Part shown: positions 20,321 through 29,454 of the stretch, piece after piece
Layout: each line of letters begins with the position of its first letter
Position numbering within the stretch: position 1 is the first letter of the stretch
NCBI GenBank assembly: GCA_016650045.1
Contig: JAENWK010000014.1
Span: forward strand, 1 to 33,273
Reading direction: 5' to 3'
Origin: Eubacteriaceae bacterium
GTDB lineage: Bacteria > Bacillota > Clostridia > Eubacteriales > Eubacteriaceae
Length of the DNA stretch: 33,273 nucleotides
Made by a program: the position numbers and the translations under genes
Notes under the pieces: generated by a model
What the model was told of the DNA's origin: nothing
Database searches by the model: none
Seen by the model: only the letters and a program-made list of their open reading frames with translations

Positions 20321-20419
20321 TCCTGGGGATAAGGGTAAATCGTTATCTGCTGCATGCTCGAACAGGCTATCGCCTGTTCGCCATGATGCAGACGACTGAT
20401 ATTACGATTGTCCCCAGGA
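20321..20419. repeat. 99-nt nested palindromic element
   Basis: Four helices stack into a rod: TCCTGGGGA (20321-20329) with TCCCCAGGA (20411-20419); AATCGTTAT (20338-20346) with ATTACGATT (20401-20409), one mismatch; CTGCAT (20350-20355) with ATGCAG (20386-20391); and CGAACAGGC (20359-20367) with GCCTGTTCG (20372-20380) around a TATC loop. The base composition is richer in G and C than the surrounding spacer. It may be a structured RNA in the transketolase 3' UTR or a mobile palindromic repeat of the REP/MITE kind. I do not match it to a known riboswitch. Confidence 0.6.
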
Positions 20420-20447
20420 CTAACTTTTCTATTTTGTCAACAGTCTG

Positions 20448-20514: not shown

Positions 20515-20545
20515 TTGACATTGACGTTACGTCAAGGTATATAGC
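20515..20545 (+). promoter_or_regulatory. MerR-type promoter with operator (copy A)
   Basis: TTGACA at 20515-20520, then the dyad TTGACGT-T-ACGTCAA at 20521-20535, then TATATAGC from 20538. With the -10 taken as TATAGC at 20540 the spacer is 19 bp, the over-long spacing typical of promoters twisted by MerR-family activators; TATATA at 20538 would give 17 bp. The operator lies between -35 and -10, as in that class. The same core and register recur at 25440-25470. Confidence 0.65.
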
Positions 20546-20567
20546 TAGATTATCAGGAGGTGATCAC

Positions 20568-20642
20568 ATGGAATACACAATACAAAAACTCGCACAGATG
20601 GCAGGTTATATTAAATTTTTTGTGTCATTTTTAAACAGTTAA
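20568..20642 (+). pseudogene. Truncated MerR-family regulator (24 codons)
   Basis: Strong RBS (CAGGAGGTGATC) and the start MEYTIQKLAQMAG, which is exactly how many MerR/TipA-like regulators begin (next expected: VSTRTLRYYD). Instead it runs into YIKFFVSFLNS and a stop, so only the first third of the HTH is left. The phrase GGT(T)ATATTAAATT occurs at the break (20604) and again at 20644, a possible deletion or insertion scar. The rest of the gene is missing. The intact promoter now drives only this stub and possibly the downstream MoxR gene. Confidence 0.65.
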
Positions 20643-20714
20643 TGGTATATTAAATTCATTCTTATTAAAGTATAAGAGAACAATGGGCAAGACCTAGACA
20701 GAAAGGAAATAATC

Positions 20715-21638
20715 ATGGAATTATACCAGGAATTATTAAAACAAGGCATCGATGAAAAATTCATTGATGATGTGAAATATTTTAGGAGCTTCTATAAATT
20801 GGAAGATCATTTACAGGATCGTGTACCAAGCACCGAGACTGTATTTTATGGGAAAGATATTTGGGCAATGTGCATCACTGCAATTTTGGAAGGTGAAAAC
20901 ATTTTGCTGTCAGGGCCAAAGGCTACCGGGAAAAATGTACTGGCAGATAATATCTGTGAGTTGTTTAACCGTCCCCAGTGGAATACATCCTTCCATGTGA
21001 ACACCGACAGTTCCAGTCTCATTGGAACCGATACCTTTATCGACAATGAAGTCCGACTGCGCCGAGGTTCAGTCTACGAGTGTGCGATTAACGGAGGATT
21101 TGGGGTTTTTGACGAAATCAATATGGCGAAAAATGATGCATTGGTGGTTCTTCACTCGGCTTTGGATTATCGAAAAGTCATTGACGTACCAGGCTATGAA
21201 AAAATAAAGCTTCATGAAGCCACTCGTTTTATTGGTACCATGAATTATGAGTATGCCGGAACAAAAGAGCTGAATGAAGCCCTGGTTTCACGATTTATGA
21301 CCATTGATATTCCACAAATTGAAGAAGAAACCTTGATGATGATCCTTAAAGATTACTTTCCGGATGTTAAAGAAGATATTCTTCCACAGTTTGCAGGCAT
21401 CTTTTTAGATCTTCAGGAAAAATCAAAAAACTCAGAAATTTCAACAAAATCCGTGGATCTTCGGGGTATTATCGGAAGCCTGAAAACCATTCGTCGAGGG
21501 TTGAAACCAATGCTGGCAGTGGATATGGGAGTGGTTGGAAAAACCTTTGATCAGTATGAAAAGGAAATTGTTTTGGATGTGATTAAAACCCGGATACGGG
21601 AAAGCTGGGAAGCCTCAGATGTTTTTAAAGACCGTTAA
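20715..21638 (+). CDS. MoxR-type AAA+ ATPase
   Basis: 307 residues. MoxR/NorQ/CbbQ-type ATPases are chaperones that activate metalloenzymes or complexes together with a VWA-domain partner. Seen: Walker A GPKATGKN (67-74), Walker B GVFDEIN (130-136), sensor-1 FIGTMNYEY (172-180) and an arginine finger region NEALVSRF (188-194). GRRLRRGS-like (VRLRRGSVYEC) and the insert before Walker B are typical. RBS AGAAAGGAA. The VWA partner gene begins 18 bases downstream, so they form an operon. No obvious client enzyme lies beside them. Confidence 0.9.
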   Translation: MELYQELLKQGIDEKFIDDVKYFRSFYKLEDHLQDRVPSTETVFYGKDIWAMCITAILEGENILLSGPKATGKNVLADNICELFNRPQWNTSFHVNTDSSSLIGTDTFIDNEVRLRRGSVYECAINGGFGVFDEINMAKNDALVVLHSALDYRKVIDVPGYEKIKLHEATRFIGTMNYEYAGTKELNEALVSRFMTIDIPQIEEETLMMILKDYFPDVKEDILPQFAGIFLDLQEKSKNSEISTKSVDLRGIIGSLKTIRRGLKPMLAVDMGVVGKTFDQYEKEIVLDVIKTRIRESWEASDVFKDR

Positions 21639-21656
21639 ATCTCTCAACCGAGGAAG

Positions 21657-23435
21657 GTGGTGGAATCGTTGAAAGATGCTAAATGGATCTATGAAAATTA
21701 TGAATTTGATAATCGGATTACCAATCTCATGTGGACCATTTCCGGAGACTATGATGAAAATATGGACAGCGGTGAGAAAAGTTTTATTTCTAAAAATGTT
21801 GCATTATACCATGCAGTCACCGCCGGCGGCCGAAGAAAATATATTGCCTGGCCCAGCGTGAAAAAGTATGTCATCAGCCGCAACCGGGCCGGATTTGATA
21901 AAAATATACTATTGGGACTCATTGCCATGGGTAGTGATCTTGTTGTTGAAGAAAAAATAATCGCCGAGCGGCCTGGGGTTTATGATATCCGAAAAAAAGC
22001 CTATGATGATATTCTCAGTAATTATTACAATCTACATACAGATAACCTCCTGGAAAAGACCAGACATGCCATGATTCTGGAGAAAACAGGGAAATGCCCA
22101 CTGATGGACGTGGAAACACGGAATCTTTTAAATGACCTTCTAGCCCTTCAAACCAGGGAAGATACCATTGAGCTGCTCAAAGGGATTGAAGACATCTATA
22201 TCAAATATTTTCCCCTATTTGTTCATGAGGATGGGAGTGAAGGGGAAAAGGCCTCTGAAAATGAGAAAGGACAACGTGGCGATTTCAGCGATTTTATGCT
22301 GGAAGAGTTGTTTGATGACCAGGAGCAATCAGATATTGAAGCCTCTGTTGAGGATATTTCCAATGCGCTTTTAGGTGAATCCCAGGGTGAAAATTCCAAC
22401 AATTCCAATGAAACCAACAATCGTATTTTGCGGGTGCAGGAAGAAGATTTGGAAAAAATTTACCAAAAGGTTGCATATTATTATGGTAACTCGTTTTTGC
22501 CCATTAACGAGGTTAAGCATTTGCAAAATCGCGTGTGTCAGGGTGCCCATGGAAACTGTCGCATTCACATGACTGATGGGGTCATTCGCAGCGAATGTAA
22601 AAATGAATTCCAGGAGAAATATATCAAGCGTCAGCAATCGAAAAATATTGAAGTCTTTCAAGCCGGTTATAAGGTCTTTAAGCGAAATATTAACAAGCTA
22701 AAGGACAGCATGGCACGCACCCTGGTTCAGGAAGAAATTGCGGATCGCATTCCCTCGGATGCCGGAAAAATTGTTTCCAATAAGCTCTGGCGTATCAATC
22801 GAAGCAGTAATAACAAAGTTTTTGTGAAGACCATCGACAATGACAAGGGGAGTTTTGTGGTGGATATTCTTATGGATTCCAGCGGCTCCCAGCGAAGAAA
22901 TCAATCCCGGGTCGCCATTCAGGCTTATATACTGGCCCAATCACTGACCCTGGTTGGCATTCCAAATCGAGTGCTGGGCTTTTCAAGCTTTCTTGACTAT
23001 ACTGTCATCAAACGTTTTCGGGACTATGAATCACCCCTTACCGCCAACGACAATATTTTTGAATATTTTTGTTCGGGGAACAATCGGGATGGCCTGGCCA
23101 TTAAAGCCACCTGCCAGGATCTCCTGAAGCGTCGGGAAGACAATAAGATTTTAATTGTTTTAAGTGATGGCCGGCCCAATGACATCAAAGTCGGAAAAGG
23201 TCAGGTTGCCGATCTTCATGCAGCCTATCGTGGTCGGGTAGCTATTGACGATACAGCCAGAGAAGTTCGCCTTGCCAGGCAGCAAGGCATCTTGGTCCTT
23301 GGTGTATTTACGGGAAAAGAACAGGATTTAATGGCTGAAAAACTTATTTACGGCAAAGACTTTGCCTATATTAAAGACATTAATCGCTTTTCCGAAATGG
23401 TTATAAAGTATTTAAAACAAATTATCATGAATTAG
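21657..23435 (+). CDS. VWA-domain protein, partner of the MoxR ATPase
   Basis: About 590 residues. The C-terminal von Willebrand A domain has the metal-ion site DSSGS at 407-411 and the later IVLSDGRPND, like NorD and CobT proteins. The N-terminal 250 residues are helical, and 190-265 is very acidic and low in complexity (EGEKASENEKGQ, QGENSNNSNETN). A central basic region follows, with cysteines in VCQGAHGNCR and RSECKN. The first possible start is GTG at 21657, but AGGAAGG overlaps it; TTG at 21669 has better spacing, so the N terminus is uncertain by four residues. The pair probably works as an ATP-driven insertase or chelatase-like chaperone; the target is unknown. Confidence 0.88.
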   Translation: MVESLKDAKWIYENYEFDNRITNLMWTISGDYDENMDSGEKSFISKNVALYHAVTAGGRRKYIAWPSVKKYVISRNRAGFDKNILLGLIAMGSDLVVEEKIIAERPGVYDIRKKAYDDILSNYYNLHTDNLLEKTRHAMILEKTGKCPLMDVETRNLLNDLLALQTREDTIELLKGIEDIYIKYFPLFVHEDGSEGEKASENEKGQRGDFSDFMLEELFDDQEQSDIEASVEDISNALLGESQGENSNNSNETNNRILRVQEEDLEKIYQKVAYYYGNSFLPINEVKHLQNRVCQGAHGNCRIHMTDGVIRSECKNEFQEKYIKRQQSKNIEVFQAGYKVFKRNINKLKDSMARTLVQEEIADRIPSDAGKIVSNKLWRINRSSNNKVFVKTIDNDKGSFVVDILMDSSGSQRRNQSRVAIQAYILAQSLTLVGIPNRVLGFSSFLDYTVIKRFRDYESPLTANDNIFEYFCSGNNRDGLAIKATCQDLLKRREDNKILIVLSDGRPNDIKVGKGQVADLHAAYRGRVAIDDTAREVRLARQQGILVLGVFTGKEQDLMAEKLIYGKDFAYIKDINRFSEMVIKYLKQIIMN

Positions 23436-23453
23436 ACATATATAGGAATCAAT

Positions 23454-23492
23454 AAAACTCATCTTGAAGTTTAAAACTTCAAGGTGGGTTTT
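23454..23492 (+). terminator. Terminator after the MoxR/VWA operon
   Basis: AAAACTCATCTTGAAGTTT pairs with AAACTTCAAGGTGGGTTTT through G-T wobbles. The 3' side ends in GGGTTTTCCC rather than a long T run. Confidence 0.65.
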
Positions 23493-23627
23493 CCCATTAT
23501 GTGGGTCATATAAATCGGTAACCTTTTTCTAACATATGTCAATAATTATTGAAATAAATTTCCATCTCTGTTTATTTGCTTAGAATAATGGTATACAATG
23601 AGCAAAAGAATAAAAGGAGATTTCACA

Positions 23628-23825
23628 ATGAAAAATGTTGGAAAGACTGATAAAATTATCAGAATCATTCTTGGTCTTGTTTTGGTTAGCTTGATTTTTA
23701 TACTACAGGGGAACATAAGATTTATTGGACTTTTAGGGATTATTCCATTAGTAACGGCATTTACAGGGTATTGCCCTATTTATGGTTTATTTCATCTCTC
23801 AACCAATAAAAAAACGAAAGAATAA
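23628..23825 (+). CDS. DUF2892-type small membrane protein
   Basis: 65 residues. The frame could open at 23598, but AAAAGGAG precedes the ATG at 23628 (MKNVGKTDKIIRIILG), which is also where DUF2892 proteins start. Two hydrophobic segments (about 11-29 and 33-50) and the ending TAFTGYCPIYGLFHLST match the membrane part of YgaP-like proteins, where the cysteine sits near the membrane face. An extended -10 (TG-G-TATACA) lies at 23589-23597. The next gene starts one base after its stop. Confidence 0.85.
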   Translation: MKNVGKTDKIIRIILGLVLVSLIFILQGNIRFIGLLGIIPLVTAFTGYCPIYGLFHLSTNKKTKE

Positions 23826-23826
23826 T

Positions 23827-24405
23827 ATGGAAAAAGCATTTATAAAACCGCCAAAAAAAATACCGCTTTTGCTTAGGCTGGGCCTATATATAGTAAAAAA
23901 AGAAACCGGCAAGGATTTATTGCCGGCACGTCTTTTGTCCTGGGTTCCCAGAGCTGCCATTGGATCGGGTGTTTTAGAGATGATGACTGCCAAAGGAAAA
24001 GATTCTCAAGAGAAGAGACTTCTTAATCTTGTAAGACTACAGGCATCATTGATCTGTTCATGCTCATTTTGTACCGATATGAACGCTGCCGGCATCAATA
24101 AAAATGGTATTACCGAAGAAGAGCTTTTAGTACTGCAAGGTAAACGGGAGGTTCAGTCCGTTACAACCTTGACCATCCGTGAACTGCTGGCACTTCAGTA
24201 TGCGGTCATCCTGTCAAGTACGCCCCCAAGTCTTACGGAAAAATTTATAAGAAATTTATCCAGTGAATTTTCCGAAAGAGAAATCGTCATGCTGGCCAGC
24301 ACCATTGCAAGTGTTAATTATTGGGCAAGACTCAATCAAGGGTTAGGCATACCGCCGGCAGGATTTAGTGAACAATGTTTAGTATTTAATAAAGATACAT
24401 TATAA
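23827..24405 (+). CDS. Carboxymuconolactone decarboxylase / AhpD-like family protein
   Basis: 192 residues. Begins one base after the DUF2892 stop. An AhpD-like core with LVRLQASLICSCSFCTDMN; the redox pair is C79/C82 (CSFC). Active members read CXXCXDMH; here the histidine is replaced by N86, so the usual proton relay is altered. Such proteins act as peroxide-linked thiol reductases or decarboxylases; the actual reaction here is unknown. The neighbouring DUF2892 membrane protein hints at redox or sulfur handling at the membrane (inference). RBS is weak, so translation is probably coupled. Confidence 0.82.
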   Translation: MEKAFIKPPKKIPLLLRLGLYIVKKETGKDLLPARLLSWVPRAAIGSGVLEMMTAKGKDSQEKRLLNLVRLQASLICSCSFCTDMNAAGINKNGITEEELLVLQGKREVQSVTTLTIRELLALQYAVILSSTPPSLTEKFIRNLSSEFSEREIVMLASTIASVNYWARLNQGLGIPPAGFSEQCLVFNKDTL

Positions 24406-24433
24406 ACTCTATTTCGGAAACAGTGGGTAAGAT

Positions 24434-24497
24434 GAAGCATAAAAATTAAACAAGGGCAGCGTAAATAAGGCGGCCCTTGTTTTAATTTTTATGCTTC
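24434..24497. terminator. Long bidirectional terminator
   Basis: GAAGCATAAAAATTAAACAAGGGC (24434-24457) pairs with 24473-24497 apart from one extra T, giving a stem of about 24 bp with AT-rich outer arms. It serves the AhpD-like gene from the left and the zinc-finger gene from the right, whose stop codon lies inside the stem. Confidence 0.85.
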
Positions 24498-24863
24498 CCA
24501 AATAACAAAATATACGCCATCTTCTCGTTTTTGACCTTTGCCTAATTCGAGATGTCTTAAGACTGAAATGTCGGAACTAATTTCTTCAGGAGTTAAGTTA
24601 AATTTTTCAACGAACTGTTCCATAGTGACGCCGTTATTAGCTTTCATAAATAAATAAAGACTTTGTTGCCGATCGGTTAAACTGTCAATGCCGGTATATC
24701 CAGATTTTTTTCGGTCAAGCAAGGCACTATGAACAGCACCAGGGTCACAGGTTTGGGTGATTTTATGTTGTCCCATGGCACAATCGTCGCAAAAGGCTTT
24801 TCCTTTTACTTCATAAACATCATCATCTTCAAGACTGATTCCACAACTAAAACATGTTTTCAT
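24489..24863 (-). CDS. Zinc-finger plus winged-helix-like protein
   Basis: 124 residues. The N terminus has CFSCGISLEDDDVYEVKGKAFCDDC: C4/C7 and C25/C28 form a LIM-like zinc site. After a linker, 58-120 looks like a winged helix (LTDRQQSLYLFMKANNGVTMEQFVEKFNLT.EEISSDISVLRHLE). This pairing suggests a small DNA-binding or protein-binding regulator. I do not know a named member. RBS AGAGGCG. A degenerate frame lies directly upstream of it on the same strand. Confidence 0.75.
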   Translation of the reverse strand: MKTCFSCGISLEDDDVYEVKGKAFCDDCAMGQHKITQTCDPGAVHSALLDRKKSGYTGIDSLTDRQQSLYLFMKANNGVTMEQFVEKFNLTPEEISSDISVLRHLELGKGQKREDGVYFVIWEA

Positions 24864-24865
24864 AT

Positions 24866-25150
24866 TTATCGCCTCTTTAAGTCAAGGCCCAATTTTAGCA
24901 AGAAAATTTCATAGTATTTATTAAGGATAGTAGCCTTGCAATCTATTGTCGGTGTGAAGGCAATATCAATATCACCGCTGGTGGTTGATGCGTTGAGGAG
25001 CTTATTGCCATTTGTTGAAAACGGCAGATTTTTGTCTCCGCTGACAGTATCAGCCTTAATTGCATAATCCGAAAAATAACTTTGTCTGATCTCATAAGAA
25101 GCTTGAAAAACAGCGCTTTTAATTTTCAGCATCAAAATAAATTGATGCAC
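24866..25150 (-). pseudogene. Possible relic of a DUF4097-type protein
   Basis: The minus strand frame contains DTVSGDKNLPFS and NASTTSGDIDIAF, the repeated T-x-SGD-I beta-helix turns of DUF4097 adhesin-like proteins. Its only start is a GTG without an RBS, the first 30 residues do not fit the family, and the promoter of the divergent Cys-rich gene lies just beyond its 5' end. I read it as the surviving 3' end of a lost gene, now ending two bases before the zinc-finger gene. Confidence 0.45.
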
Positions 25151-25152
25151 TA

Positions 25153-25181
25153 TTGAAATATAATAAACATTAGCTCATAAT
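25153..25181 (+). promoter_or_regulatory. Promoter of the small Cys-rich gene
   Basis: TTGAAA (25153-25158), 17 bp, CATAAT (25176-25181). Confidence 0.6.
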
Positions 25182-25212
25182 ATAAGTAATACGAAATAGA
25201 GGAGGTCCGATA

Positions 25213-25389
25213 ATGGAAGAATGTGACTACAAATGCAAATCGTGTAAAGATTCATGCATCACCAAAGCCAGTACAGAAAACTTATTAGCCATGGGTATTA
25301 ATTGTATGAGATACAGTGGTGTTATAAATCAATTTTCAGAGATGCAAGAAGCGATTGATATTGAACTAAATACAAGGGATGACGCTTAA
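25213..25389 (+). CDS. 58-residue Cys-rich small protein
   Basis: A small complete gene with a near-perfect RBS (GGAGGTCCGATA before ATG) and its own promoter. The N terminus is MEECDYKCKSCKDSCITKA: C4, C8, C11 and C15 give CX3CX2CX3C, with another cysteine at 31 (INCMRY). The rest is a short helical tail ending NTRDDA. The spacing could bind zinc or an Fe-S cluster. I do not recognise the family. It lies just upstream of the MerR-type promoter and may belong to the same accessory group. Confidence 0.7.
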   Translation: MEECDYKCKSCKDSCITKASTENLLAMGINCMRYSGVINQFSEMQEAIDIELNTRDDA

Positions 25390-25439
25390 GTAATTTACAT
25401 GACGAGAAAGAACCGGCAATTCATTAAGCAAAAAAAAGC

Positions 25440-25470
25440 TTGCTTGTTACGTTACGTCATATAGTATAAT
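25440..25470 (+). promoter_or_regulatory. MerR-type promoter with operator (copy B)
   Basis: TTGCTT (25440-25445), 19 bp, TATAAT (25465-25470). The spacer contains ACGTTACGTCA (25449-25459), identical to the core in copy A and at the same distance from -35 and -10. The left half-site is weaker (TTACGT in place of TGACGT). It is probably autoregulated by the MerR protein encoded next. Confidence 0.7.
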
Positions 25471-25509
25471 AACAAGTGAGATGATGAATCATGCAAAAAA
25501 AAAGAACTC

Positions 25510-25848
25510 ATGACAGTTGGCGAGCTTGCTAAACAAATGGATATTACTGTTCGTACACTGCAATACTATGATAAAGAGGATTTACTCAAACCCTCTGAAA
25601 AAAGCGAGGGCGGCAGGAGACTGTATAGCAATAAGGATATGGTTAAACTTCATCAAATTTTGTCGATGAAGTTCCTAGGCTTTTCACTTGATGATATAAA
25701 AAATCGCCTAATTTCTCTTGATACGCCCGAAGAGGTTGCCAATGTTTTAAGTGAACAGGCACAAGTTGATGAGTTTCTGGGAAATGCATTGGGTGTTTAT
25801 TTTCAAAATCAAGGGATTGTTATTCCGGATATGGAGGTTCAAAGGTGA
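25510..25848 (+). CDS. Short MerR-family transcriptional regulator
   Basis: 112 residues. Complete MerR winged HTH: MTVGELAKQMDITVRTLQYYDKEDLLKPSEKSEGGRRLYS, then the second helix pair (MKFLGFSLDDIKNRL). The usual 35-residue dimerisation helix and effector part are much reduced: after VLSEQAQ there is only DEFLGNALGVYFQNQGIVIPDMEVQR. An internal deletion of the C-terminal domain is likely, or this is a minimal regulator. The ATG has a poor RBS and follows a run of nine A (25495-25503). Coupled by overlap to the ABC ATPase, and its operator lies at 25449. Confidence 0.88.
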   Translation: MTVGELAKQMDITVRTLQYYDKEDLLKPSEKSEGGRRLYSNKDMVKLHQILSMKFLGFSLDDIKNRLISLDTPEEVANVLSEQAQVDEFLGNALGVYFQNQGIVIPDMEVQR

Positions 25849-26690
25849 TGGATTCAGCCATTCAAATTGACAACTTAACAAAAAGTTATGGAACAAATAC
25901 AGTGATTAAAGATATCTCTTTTGCTGTAAATCGGGGTGAAATTTTTGCTTTGCTCGGAACCAATGGGGCAGGGAAAACCACTACCCTGGAATGCATTGAA
26001 GGCATTCGAAAATATGATAGCGGAACGATTAAAGTCAATGGAAAGGTGGGGGTACAGCTTCAATCTTCATCACTTCCCACAAATATGAAGGCAATCGAAG
26101 CCTATCATTTATTTTGCAGGTGGAACAGGGTACCGGTTAATCTGGATTTATTTAATCTTTTTGAACTTGCACCGCTAAAAAACAAACAGTACATAGAAAT
26201 GTCCACAGGGCAAAAAAGGCGGTTGCATTTAGCCCTGGCACTGATCGGAGACCCCGATATCATATTTCTTGATGAACCAACCGCAGGACTTGATGTGGAG
26301 GGCAGAGTATCTCTTCACGGATATATACGCAAATTAAAGGAACAGGGAAAAACCATCGTTATGGCAAGCCATGATATGGCCGAAGTGGAAAGTCTTTGTG
26401 ATCGAATTGCGATTCTTAACAAGGGAAAAATTGCTTTTACAGGGACAATCAATGAACTCACCAATGAAATGGGGGAGCAATGTTTAATTCACATCAAAAC
26501 CGAAAGACCCTTACAAACCGCTGATTGCGAACAGGACTATGCCGTCTTTACTACTCAAAATATTGGCGATACCTTGCTTGAACTCCTTGAAATCTGCAAA
26601 GAAACCCAAAACACGGTGATTGATATCAAAATTGAAAGAGCGACACTTGAAAAAAGATTTATGGACATTGCCAAGGAGAGTATAGTATGA
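25848..26690 (+). CDS. ABC transporter ATP-binding protein (MerR-linked module)
   Basis: 280 residues. Walker A LLGTNGAGKTTTLE near 38, signature MSTGQKRRLHLALAL near 118, Walker B DPDIIFLDEPTAGLD near 135, H-loop ASHDMAE near 170. A C-terminal extension of about 80 residues follows, as in ABC-2 drug or lipid exporters. I start at the ATG at 25848 (after AAAGGTG) rather than the GTG at 25845; it overlaps the MerR stop as TGATG. Powers the permease encoded next. Confidence 0.93.
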   Translation: MDSAIQIDNLTKSYGTNTVIKDISFAVNRGEIFALLGTNGAGKTTTLECIEGIRKYDSGTIKVNGKVGVQLQSSSLPTNMKAIEAYHLFCRWNRVPVNLDLFNLFELAPLKNKQYIEMSTGQKRRLHLALALIGDPDIIFLDEPTAGLDVEGRVSLHGYIRKLKEQGKTIVMASHDMAEVESLCDRIAILNKGKIAFTGTINELTNEMGEQCLIHIKTERPLQTADCEQDYAVFTTQNIGDTLLELLEICKETQNTVIDIKIERATLEKRFMDIAKESIV

Positions 26691-27403
26691 GTGCATTTTT
26701 ATACGGGGTAATCCTACAGTGGAAACTTGATTTTAGAAACAAAGGAGTACTGCTCACCTATTATGTTGTGCCCCTGGTATTCTTCGCTTTTATGGGTGGA
26801 ATTTTTTCATCAATTAACCCTGCCTCAAAAGATACGTTAATCCAATCCATGACAGTGTTTGGGGTGACCATGGGAGCATTTTTAGGAACACCCACACCGC
26901 TAGTTGAGCTGTATGGCAGCGAAATAAAAAAAGCGTATAAGGTAGGCGGCATACCCCTGTGGGTGGCGGCAATCAATAACTTTATCTCAGCGTTTATTCA
27001 TCTTTTCATGATGAGTCTGGTCATGTTTTTTATTGCCCCTGTGGCATTTGATGCTAAAATTCCACAAAATCCCCAGCTTTATTTACTATCTCTGGCAATT
27101 TTTATCATCGCCTCTCTGGGAGTCGGAACAGTACTGGGGTTGCTGATCAAAAACCTTTCAAAGCTCACAATTTTGGCCCAGCTATTATTTCTGCCTTCAA
27201 TTATGTTATCGGGCATTATGTTTCCTGCCAGTATGCTCCCAAAAGCACTAGAAACCGTATCGGTCATTTTGCCGGCAACCTGGGGGTTTAAATTGATGAC
27301 AAACGAAGTTTTTGATGTTAAGTTGCTAATACCCCTGGTGGTTATAATGATTGTATCAATGGGTGTCAGTGGCTATAAATTGTCAAAAATCAGTTTAGAG
27401 TAG
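26687..27403 (+). CDS. ABC-2 type permease (MerR-linked module)
   Basis: 238 residues, six membrane segments (about 17-38, 50-70, 95-120, 130-155, 160-185, 215-232). Overlaps the ATPase gene by four bases (ATGA). With the ATPase it forms a half-size exporter; drug, bacteriocin or lipid export is usual for this class and the substrate cannot be told. Motif LLFLPSIMLSGIMFPASMLP is a family mark. Confidence 0.9.
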   Translation: MSAFLYGVILQWKLDFRNKGVLLTYYVVPLVFFAFMGGIFSSINPASKDTLIQSMTVFGVTMGAFLGTPTPLVELYGSEIKKAYKVGGIPLWVAAINNFISAFIHLFMMSLVMFFIAPVAFDAKIPQNPQLYLLSLAIFIIASLGVGTVLGLLIKNLSKLTILAQLLFLPSIMLSGIMFPASMLPKALETVSVILPATWGFKLMTNEVFDVKLLIPLVVIMIVSMGVSGYKLSKISLE

Positions 27404-27579: not shown

Positions 27580-27963
27580 ATGGAGTGGATCATTGATTCA
27601 GACCGACCTATTTATAAACAATTGGTCGAACAAATTGAACTGAGAATAATTTCAGGAATGTACGCCCCTGGCGATAAAATTAAATCGGTGAGAGAACTGG
27701 CGATGGAAGCCGGTGTCAATCCCAATACTATGCAAAAGGCATTGGCGGAGCTTGAAAGAATGGGACTGGTATTTGCACAACGAACCAGTGGACGATTTAT
27801 TACGGAGGATAATAAAATGATTGAAGAAGCAAAGAATACCCTGGCTATTAAAGAAATTGACAGTTTTTTTGAGAAAATGAAACAACTTGGTTTTGAAAAA
27901 GAAGAAATTATTTCATTGATTGAAAAAGCAGAGGGAGACCGCAATGGAAATTCTAAGAGCTAA
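27580..27963 (+). CDS. GntR-family regulator, YtrA type
   Basis: 127 residues. Winged HTH at 10-75: PIYKQLVEQIELRIISGMYAPGDKIKSVRELAMEAGVNPNTMQKALAELERMGLV. The short helical C terminus without a ligand domain is typical of the YtrA subgroup, which sits in front of ABC exporters and senses cell-wall-active drugs in some species. RBS GAAGGAGGAAG. Overlaps the next gene by 20 bases. Confidence 0.94.
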   Translation: MEWIIDSDRPIYKQLVEQIELRIISGMYAPGDKIKSVRELAMEAGVNPNTMQKALAELERMGLVFAQRTSGRFITEDNKMIEEAKNTLAIKEIDSFFEKMKQLGFEKEEIISLIEKAEGDRNGNSKS

Positions 27964-28639
27964 GGGGCTGACAAAAAAATTCGGAAATCTCACAGCCTTG
28001 TCCAATCTGGATTTGGAAATTCCAAGGGGAAGAATTATCGGTTTATTAGGACCCAATGGCAGTGGCAAAAGTACATTTATTAAGCTGGCTACCGGACTTC
28101 TGGTTCCAACTTCTGGAGAAATAACCATTGCCGGAGCAACACCGGGTATAGAAACCAAAGCCATGGTGTCTTATTTGCCGGAAAGGACCTATCTCAACGA
28201 TTGGATGCGAGCCGAAGATATGATTGCTTTCTTTGGCGATTTTTATGAAGACTTTAATCGGCTTAAGGCGGACAATATGCTGAGAGATCTTAATATTAAC
28301 CCTGGGGATCGATTAAAAACAATGTCTAAAGGCACCAAAGAAAAAGTGCAGCTCATTTTGGTTATGAGTCGGGATGCAGAGCTTTATTTATTGGACGAAC
28401 CCATTGCCGGTGTGGATCCTGCTGCCCGGGATTACATCCTTAATACCATCATTACCAATTACAAAGAAAATGCTTCGGTGATTATTTCCACCCATCTCAT
28501 CGCCGATATTGAGCAAGTATTAGATGATATTATTTTCATATCCCAAGGCGAAATTAAATTATTGTCCACCGTGGATGATATCCGGGAAAAACACAATAAA
28601 TCGGTGGATGGATTATTCAGGGAGGTATTCAAATGTTAG
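27944..28639 (+). CDS. ABC transporter ATP-binding protein (GntR-linked module)
   Basis: 231 residues. The frame opens at 27920, but GAGGGAG lies before the ATG at 27944 (MEILRAKGLTKKFG), the usual start. Walker A LLGPNGSGKSTFI near 36, signature MSKGTKEKVQL near 127, Walker B AELYLLDEPIAGVDP near 144, H-loop STHLIAD near 184. YtrB/BcrA-like. Ends seven bases into the permease gene. Confidence 0.93.
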   Translation: MEILRAKGLTKKFGNLTALSNLDLEIPRGRIIGLLGPNGSGKSTFIKLATGLLVPTSGEITIAGATPGIETKAMVSYLPERTYLNDWMRAEDMIAFFGDFYEDFNRLKADNMLRDLNINPGDRLKTMSKGTKEKVQLILVMSRDAELYLLDEPIAGVDPAARDYILNTIITNYKENASVIISTHLIADIEQVLDDIIFISQGEIKLLSTVDDIREKHNKSVDGLFREVFKC

Positions 28640-29454
28640 GAAAATTATTGAAGTACGAAATAAAAGCTACGGGACGAATATTCTTGCCCATATATTTGGC
28701 GCTGTTGGCCCTGACGATTATAACGAAAGTCCTCTTAATGATCGCCATGCCAGACGTCTTCTTAGATTCTACCAGTGGAACCAGTTTCGATATTCCCCTG
28801 GGGATTAGCGTGACCTTGTATTTTATCATTATTGTAGCTTTGAGTGTGATGACACTGATCGTGATCGTTCAGCGGTTTTATAAGAACCTACTCACCGATG
28901 AAGGCTATCTTATGTTCACCATACCAGTCGAAACCTGGAAGCTCATTATGTCCAAGCTCATTGTTGGTTTAATGTGGACCTTTGTCTGTGTATTTACAGT
29001 TGCCCTTTCCATCCTCATTCTGGCCCTCGGTAATTTTTCAATCATGGAAATGAACCAGGGCATCAGCATGCTTTACGCAGAATTTCAGAATCAATTTGGG
29101 ATGAGCCCAAATATCCTGATTGCTGAATTTATTATTTTAATGATCGTGGAAACAGTGGCCTCTGTCTTAATGATTTATGTTTCGATTGCCATTGGTCAAC
29201 TCTTTAGTCAGCATCGGATTATGGCAGCCTTCGGAGCCTATATCGTCATTAGCATAGTGTTACAGATTGTGATGACGTTATTAATTGCACTTATTCCGGC
29301 CTTTGGTTTAGAATACCTCATGAATTCGCAGATAAATCAAATGAAAGCAGTAGAGGTTTTTATTAATGGGATTACTGTATTCAATATTATCTCGGCAGTA
29401 GCCTTCTATTTCATCACGAACTATATTTTAAAGAATCGGCTGAATTTAGAATAG
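28633..29454 (+). CDS. ABC-type permease-like membrane protein (GntR-linked module)
   Basis: 273 residues with about six membrane segments (about 17-35, 55-80, 108-130, 160-185, 195-220, 245-265). Starts LGKLLKYEIKATGRIFLP, a common opening of ABC-2 permeases of the YtrC/D kind. RBS GGGAGG. Together with the ATPase it should form an exporter or a sensing complex for envelope stress (inference). No clear terminator follows. Confidence 0.87.
   Translation: MLGKLLKYEIKATGRIFLPIYLALLALTIITKVLLMIAMPDVFLDSTSGTSFDIPLGISVTLYFIIIVALSVMTLIVIVQRFYKNLLTDEGYLMFTIPVETWKLIMSKLIVGLMWTFVCVFTVALSILILALGNFSIMEMNQGISMLYAEFQNQFGMSPNILIAEFIILMIVETVASVLMIYVSIAIGQLFSQHRIMAAFGAYIVISIVLQIVMTLLIALIPAFGLEYLMNSQINQMKAVEVFINGITVFNIISAVAFYFITNYILKNRLNLE

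Follow-up and report, generated by a model that had tools for sequence, protein, structure and literature searches.

Two MerR-type promoters of one operator class in a small Eubacteriaceae genome are probably separate self-promoters of decayed regulator genes

The two MerR-type promoters at 20515 (A) and 25440 (B) of the window, by which we mean the whole 33,273-nucleotide stretch analyzed here, are very probably independent self-promoters of two decayed MerR-family genes, each carrying the family-typical operator in a 19-bp spacer. The first-pass annotation had proposed that a single regulator acts at both sites and so links a MoxR/VWA operon to an exporter operon; the single operator class stood, whereas the common control was not supported. 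Judged from sequence, the shared core appears to be an operator normal to two MerR branches rather than a connection of the moxR/VWA genes with the exporter genes.

Promoter A (20515 to 20545; this and all other features are given on the + strand) consists of a −35 element, TTGACA, at 20515 to 20520, a 19-bp spacer, and a −10 element, TATAGC, at 20540 to 20545 that has lost its final T. Promoter B (25440 to 25470) consists of TTGCTT at 25440 to 25445, a spacer of the same length, and TATAAT at 25465 to 25470. The core ACGTTACGTCA is read at 20524 to 20534 in A and at 25449 to 25459 in B, starting in each case 9 bases past the start of the −35, and the identity of core, register, and spacing first reported for the two sites is exact. 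Operator A is a perfect 15-bp inverted repeat, TTGACGT-T-ACGTCAA (20521 to 20535), and operator B is a weaker inverted repeat outside ACGTTACGT; both sites have the MerR-type layout of an inverted-repeat operator in a 19- to 20-bp spacer, with ACGTTACGT as the core.

With up to one mismatch allowed, the 11-mer ACGTTACGTCA matched the window three times (0.15 expected), although one match was the palindrome read backwards, and the exact 11-mer occurs at two places in the whole 2.23-Mb genome, A and B, both inside the window. Since a reversed control of the 11-mer likewise occurred twice genome-wide, the 11-mer alone is not improbable. We therefore attach more weight to its geometry. A search of the genome for the core in 19-bp-spaced promoters, which had been suggested as a check at first pass, was run with the pattern TTG-N6-ACGTNRCGT-N7-TANNNT (core at +9, −10 at +25) and returned A and B only at ≤1 mismatch: B with none and A with one, at the last base of the −10. 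At 2 mismatches there were 7 further matches, compared with 33 for the reversed control. Since the full geometry singles out A and B, both are genuine MerR-type promoters of a single class.

Relatives of promoter A were gathered by scanning a collection of species genomes with a pattern covering the −35 to the operator, and 101 loci among the matches listed were analyzed. A MerR open reading frame (ORF) lay directly behind the promoter in 90 of these 101 listed loci, typically starting ~52 bases after the −35 and running for ~254 residues; a stricter count of the same loci gave 78 full-length genes, 7 short ones, 9 cut by the end of the sequence, and 7 without a recognized MerR. Among the matches listed, this self-promoter (consensus, TTGACGTNRCGTNAAGG) is widespread, occurring in many genera, mostly Firmicutes, and a representative of the MerR proteins behind it has MerR_1 and TipAS domains and matches the solved structures of SkgA, Mta, and TipA. 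The −10 lay beyond the end of the search pattern and so provides an independent test; all 98 distinct relatives among the matches listed have T as its final base, and site A has C.

The stretch from 20515 to ~20606 is 75 to 82% identical to the corresponding 5′ part, promoter included, of full-length MerR-TipAS genes in relatives. Of the 24-codon ORF behind A (20568 to 20642), codons 1 to 13 (20568 to 20606, MEYTIQKLAQMAG) are the start of such a gene, and the last 11 codons derive from the old moxR leader, with the stop codon at 20640 to 20642. A wrecked MerR gene does follow promoter A, as had been described, but its MerR portion is confined to the first 13 codons of the stub. By these comparisons, site A is what is left of a gene for a ~254-residue MerR-TipAS regulator, a detached 5′ terminus comprising its promoter, its ribosome site, and 13 codons. 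It has the same promoter and first 13 codons as TipA-class regulators (TipA, Mta, and SkgA) in Firmicutes relatives but keeps the 5′ end alone, the effector and dimerization parts being gone and the −10 altered. Given that the TipA class is defined by a MerR DNA-binding domain, a coiled coil, and a TipAS domain, the gene behind A, with its 13 N-terminal codons, is a remnant of this class rather than a member.

In another genome (L127), a MerR-TipAS 5′ stub of ~36 homologous codons follows an intact A-type promoter that keeps the final T of its −10; the stub adjoins, upstream, a membrane-protein-like ORF and is a fossil of the same kind as site A. In two Traorella genomes (L095 and L140), no MerR gene follows the A-type promoter, which leads straight into a glucose-1-phosphate thymidylyltransferase-like gene.

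Downstream of A lie genes for a MoxR-type AAA ATPase (20715 to 21638) and its VWA/CobT-like partner (21657 to 23435). The moxR gene has an extended −10 promoter of its own, TGGTATATT, at 20643 to 20651, which the stop codon of the stub directly abuts, and the TG-N-TATATT of this promoter is found at the same place before moxR in 18 of 18 aligned loci of the genus. In relatives, the 1.5-kb stretches retrieved upstream and downstream of moxR hold no ACGTNACGT, and these relatives lack the conserved linked site before moxR by which a shared regulon would be recognized. Since the moxR promoter is conserved and no ACGTNACGT occurs near moxR in relatives, A would be an addition in this lineage. Both flanks of the extra DNA align to the tkt-moxR intergenic region of one relative, G008.

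A mobile-element origin of A was rejected, as there was no match in plasmids or phages. Derivation from a MerR-TipAS copy at a neighboring locus in the genus was also rejected, because the copies in G014 and G006 are not beside moxR; they adjoin an ABC-F gene and, in G014, a murE-like gene as well. Matches to the 15-bp repeat with 1 mismatch in G013, G017, and G000 (contig C159) are not in promoters; they fall on the border of a coding region next to a pyruvate phosphate dikinase-like gene. Between the transketolase gene and site A lies a near-perfect 100-base hairpin (20321 to 20420; −56.5 kcal/mol, z = −8.4), a dispersed palindromic repeat (REP/MITE-like) of the genus with no good Rfam match; this genome holds 19 matches to it, G008 holds 78, and G016 holds 35, with none in G006 and G014.

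Promoter B precedes a 112-residue MerR ORF (25510 to 25848) and genes for an ABC exporter ATPase (25845 to 26690) and an ABC-2 type membrane protein (26687 to 27403), which bears out the earlier description of a shortened regulator with an exporter. Since the start codon of the ATPase gene (ATG at 25848) shares bases with the stop codon of the MerR ORF, in the sequence TGATG, the two are probably translationally coupled. In 12 relatives, the same promoter register (consensus, TGACGTNRCGTNA) is followed by a MerR frame of 270 to 289 codons (~260 residues) and then by an ABC ATPase, and within the genus the strict operator promoter is confined to B-type MerR genes, those of G013 and G017. These parallels point to B as the self-promoter of a MerR/ABC-exporter cassette. 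It resembles Clostridia MerR/ABC-2 exporter cassettes in promoter register, DNA-binding domain, and gene order but differs from them in that the regulator is cut to 112 residues and its start signals are lost. A second exporter cassette follows B at 27580 to 29454 (a GntR regulator, an ABC ATPase, and a membrane protein); it resembles PmtR/PmtA, with weak family matches below the cutoff.

Relative to its homologs, the B regulator keeps residues 1 to 88 and the last 24, joined without a frameshift, the ~155 residues between having been deleted. The retained part scores 65.6 bits against MerR_1 (cutoff, 21.6), has the winged helix-turn-helix, and keeps every alignment-invariant residue of the DNA-binding domain. 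Most of the dimerization helix and the effector domain are gone, and the protein does not have the long dimerization helix and effector domain of a canonical MerR. A Shine-Dalgarno-like motif is present in 12 of 12 relatives and absent from their counterpart in the window; the ATG at the ancestral start (25491 to 25493) is out of the MerR frame, which would need a start at 25510, and the lesion sits in a run of nine A's. In a low-confidence structure model built from six sequences, one continuous 28-residue helix crosses the deletion junction, which leaves room for dimerization.

These features bear on who could control both sites. The two promoters are conserved as self-promoters of separate MerR families, which argues against one MerR controlling both. 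The −10 base altered from the listed relatives and the conserved promoter that moxR has of its own speak against a link running through A, and the B regulator has lost most of its dimerization helix, its effector domain, its Shine-Dalgarno motif, and its original start frame. This genome has 2 MerR helix-turn-helix genes, compared with 2 to 16 in genus relatives. The second, on contig C5, sits behind TTGACTTAGAGCTAACTCTA, an operator-like repeat unlike ACGTNACGT; having a different putative operator, this sole other MerR was rejected as a regulator common to A and B.

It is nonetheless conceivable, though very unlikely, that the 112-residue protein works as a mini-regulator of B and A, like the isolated DNA-binding part of Mta, coupling the response of moxR/VWA to that of the exporter. 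A core and register common to A and B and unique in the genome, the intact DNA-binding domain, and the modeled helix would fit, and TipA and Mta without their effector domains are reported to be constitutively active (PMC7762955). MtaN from Bacillus subtilis is indeed like the B protein in its ~110 residues, its similar N-terminal domain, and its want of an effector domain, but it retains the coiled-coil dimerization helix that B has mostly lost; the lost start signals of B, the damaged −10 of A, the separate moxR promoter, and the addition of A in this lineage only also speak against a mini-regulator. The more specific version, a natural MtaN-like protein in which joining of the deletion ends made a short new dimerization helix and which acts effector-free on the exporter promoter and an orphan A, is extremely unlikely; if true, the MoxR/VWA operon would have been drawn into a response centered on drug export. 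That the lesions at B are assembly errors, with the regulator intact in the living cell and A still a fossil, is most unlikely. The assembly is in 217 contigs and the start lesion falls in the A run, but the clean, in-frame deletion, the MerR stop that still overlaps the start of the ABC gene, and the additional loss of the Shine-Dalgarno motif speak against such errors. For A itself, another reading is unlikely: it could still be a weak unregulated promoter that sends RNA into moxR and adds to the native promoter without a regulator. A has a consensus −35, TTGACA; a TATATA at 17-bp spacing overlaps its −10; and by eye no terminator-like feature lies between it and moxR. However, the final T invariant in listed relatives is missing from both TATAGC and TATATA, and MerR proteins work as dimers on 19- to 20-bp spacers, a 19-bp spacer being a poor promoter when the MerR protein is absent (PMC9909328).

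We favor independent self-promoters with decayed regulators. Two MerR branches, both with a GACGTNRCGT-type operator in a 19-bp spacer, would give rise to look-alike sites, and the exact identity of the 11-mer would be a modest coincidence on top of the shared family operator. A TipA/Mta-like MerR-TipAS gene may have entered between the transketolase gene and moxR and then lost all but its promoter and 13 codons. With its regulator absent, a 19-bp spacer, and a damaged −10, site A is now probably silent or weak, and moxR would be transcribed from its extended −10 promoter. At B, the regulator would have been internally deleted while the exporter genes were kept, probably expressed at the basal level of the promoter. 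By analogy with the TipA class, which is autoregulated (PMC7762955), A- and B-type genes may both be autoregulated. Regulator loss in a small genome (2.23 Mb, compared with 2.7 to 4.1 Mb in the genus, which judging by its genes is probably Acetobacterium) would be the most economical history. Against the favored reading, an identical 11-mer and register found nowhere else would also be expected with a shared regulator, operator A is a perfect, uneroded inverted repeat, and the B regulator retains its DNA-binding domain after an in-frame deletion.

Two regulator sites of identical sequence and register in a genome thus do not have to belong to a common regulon, given how similar the operators within a large family are. 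A promoter orphaned by the loss of its MerR gene can survive before an unrelated operon.
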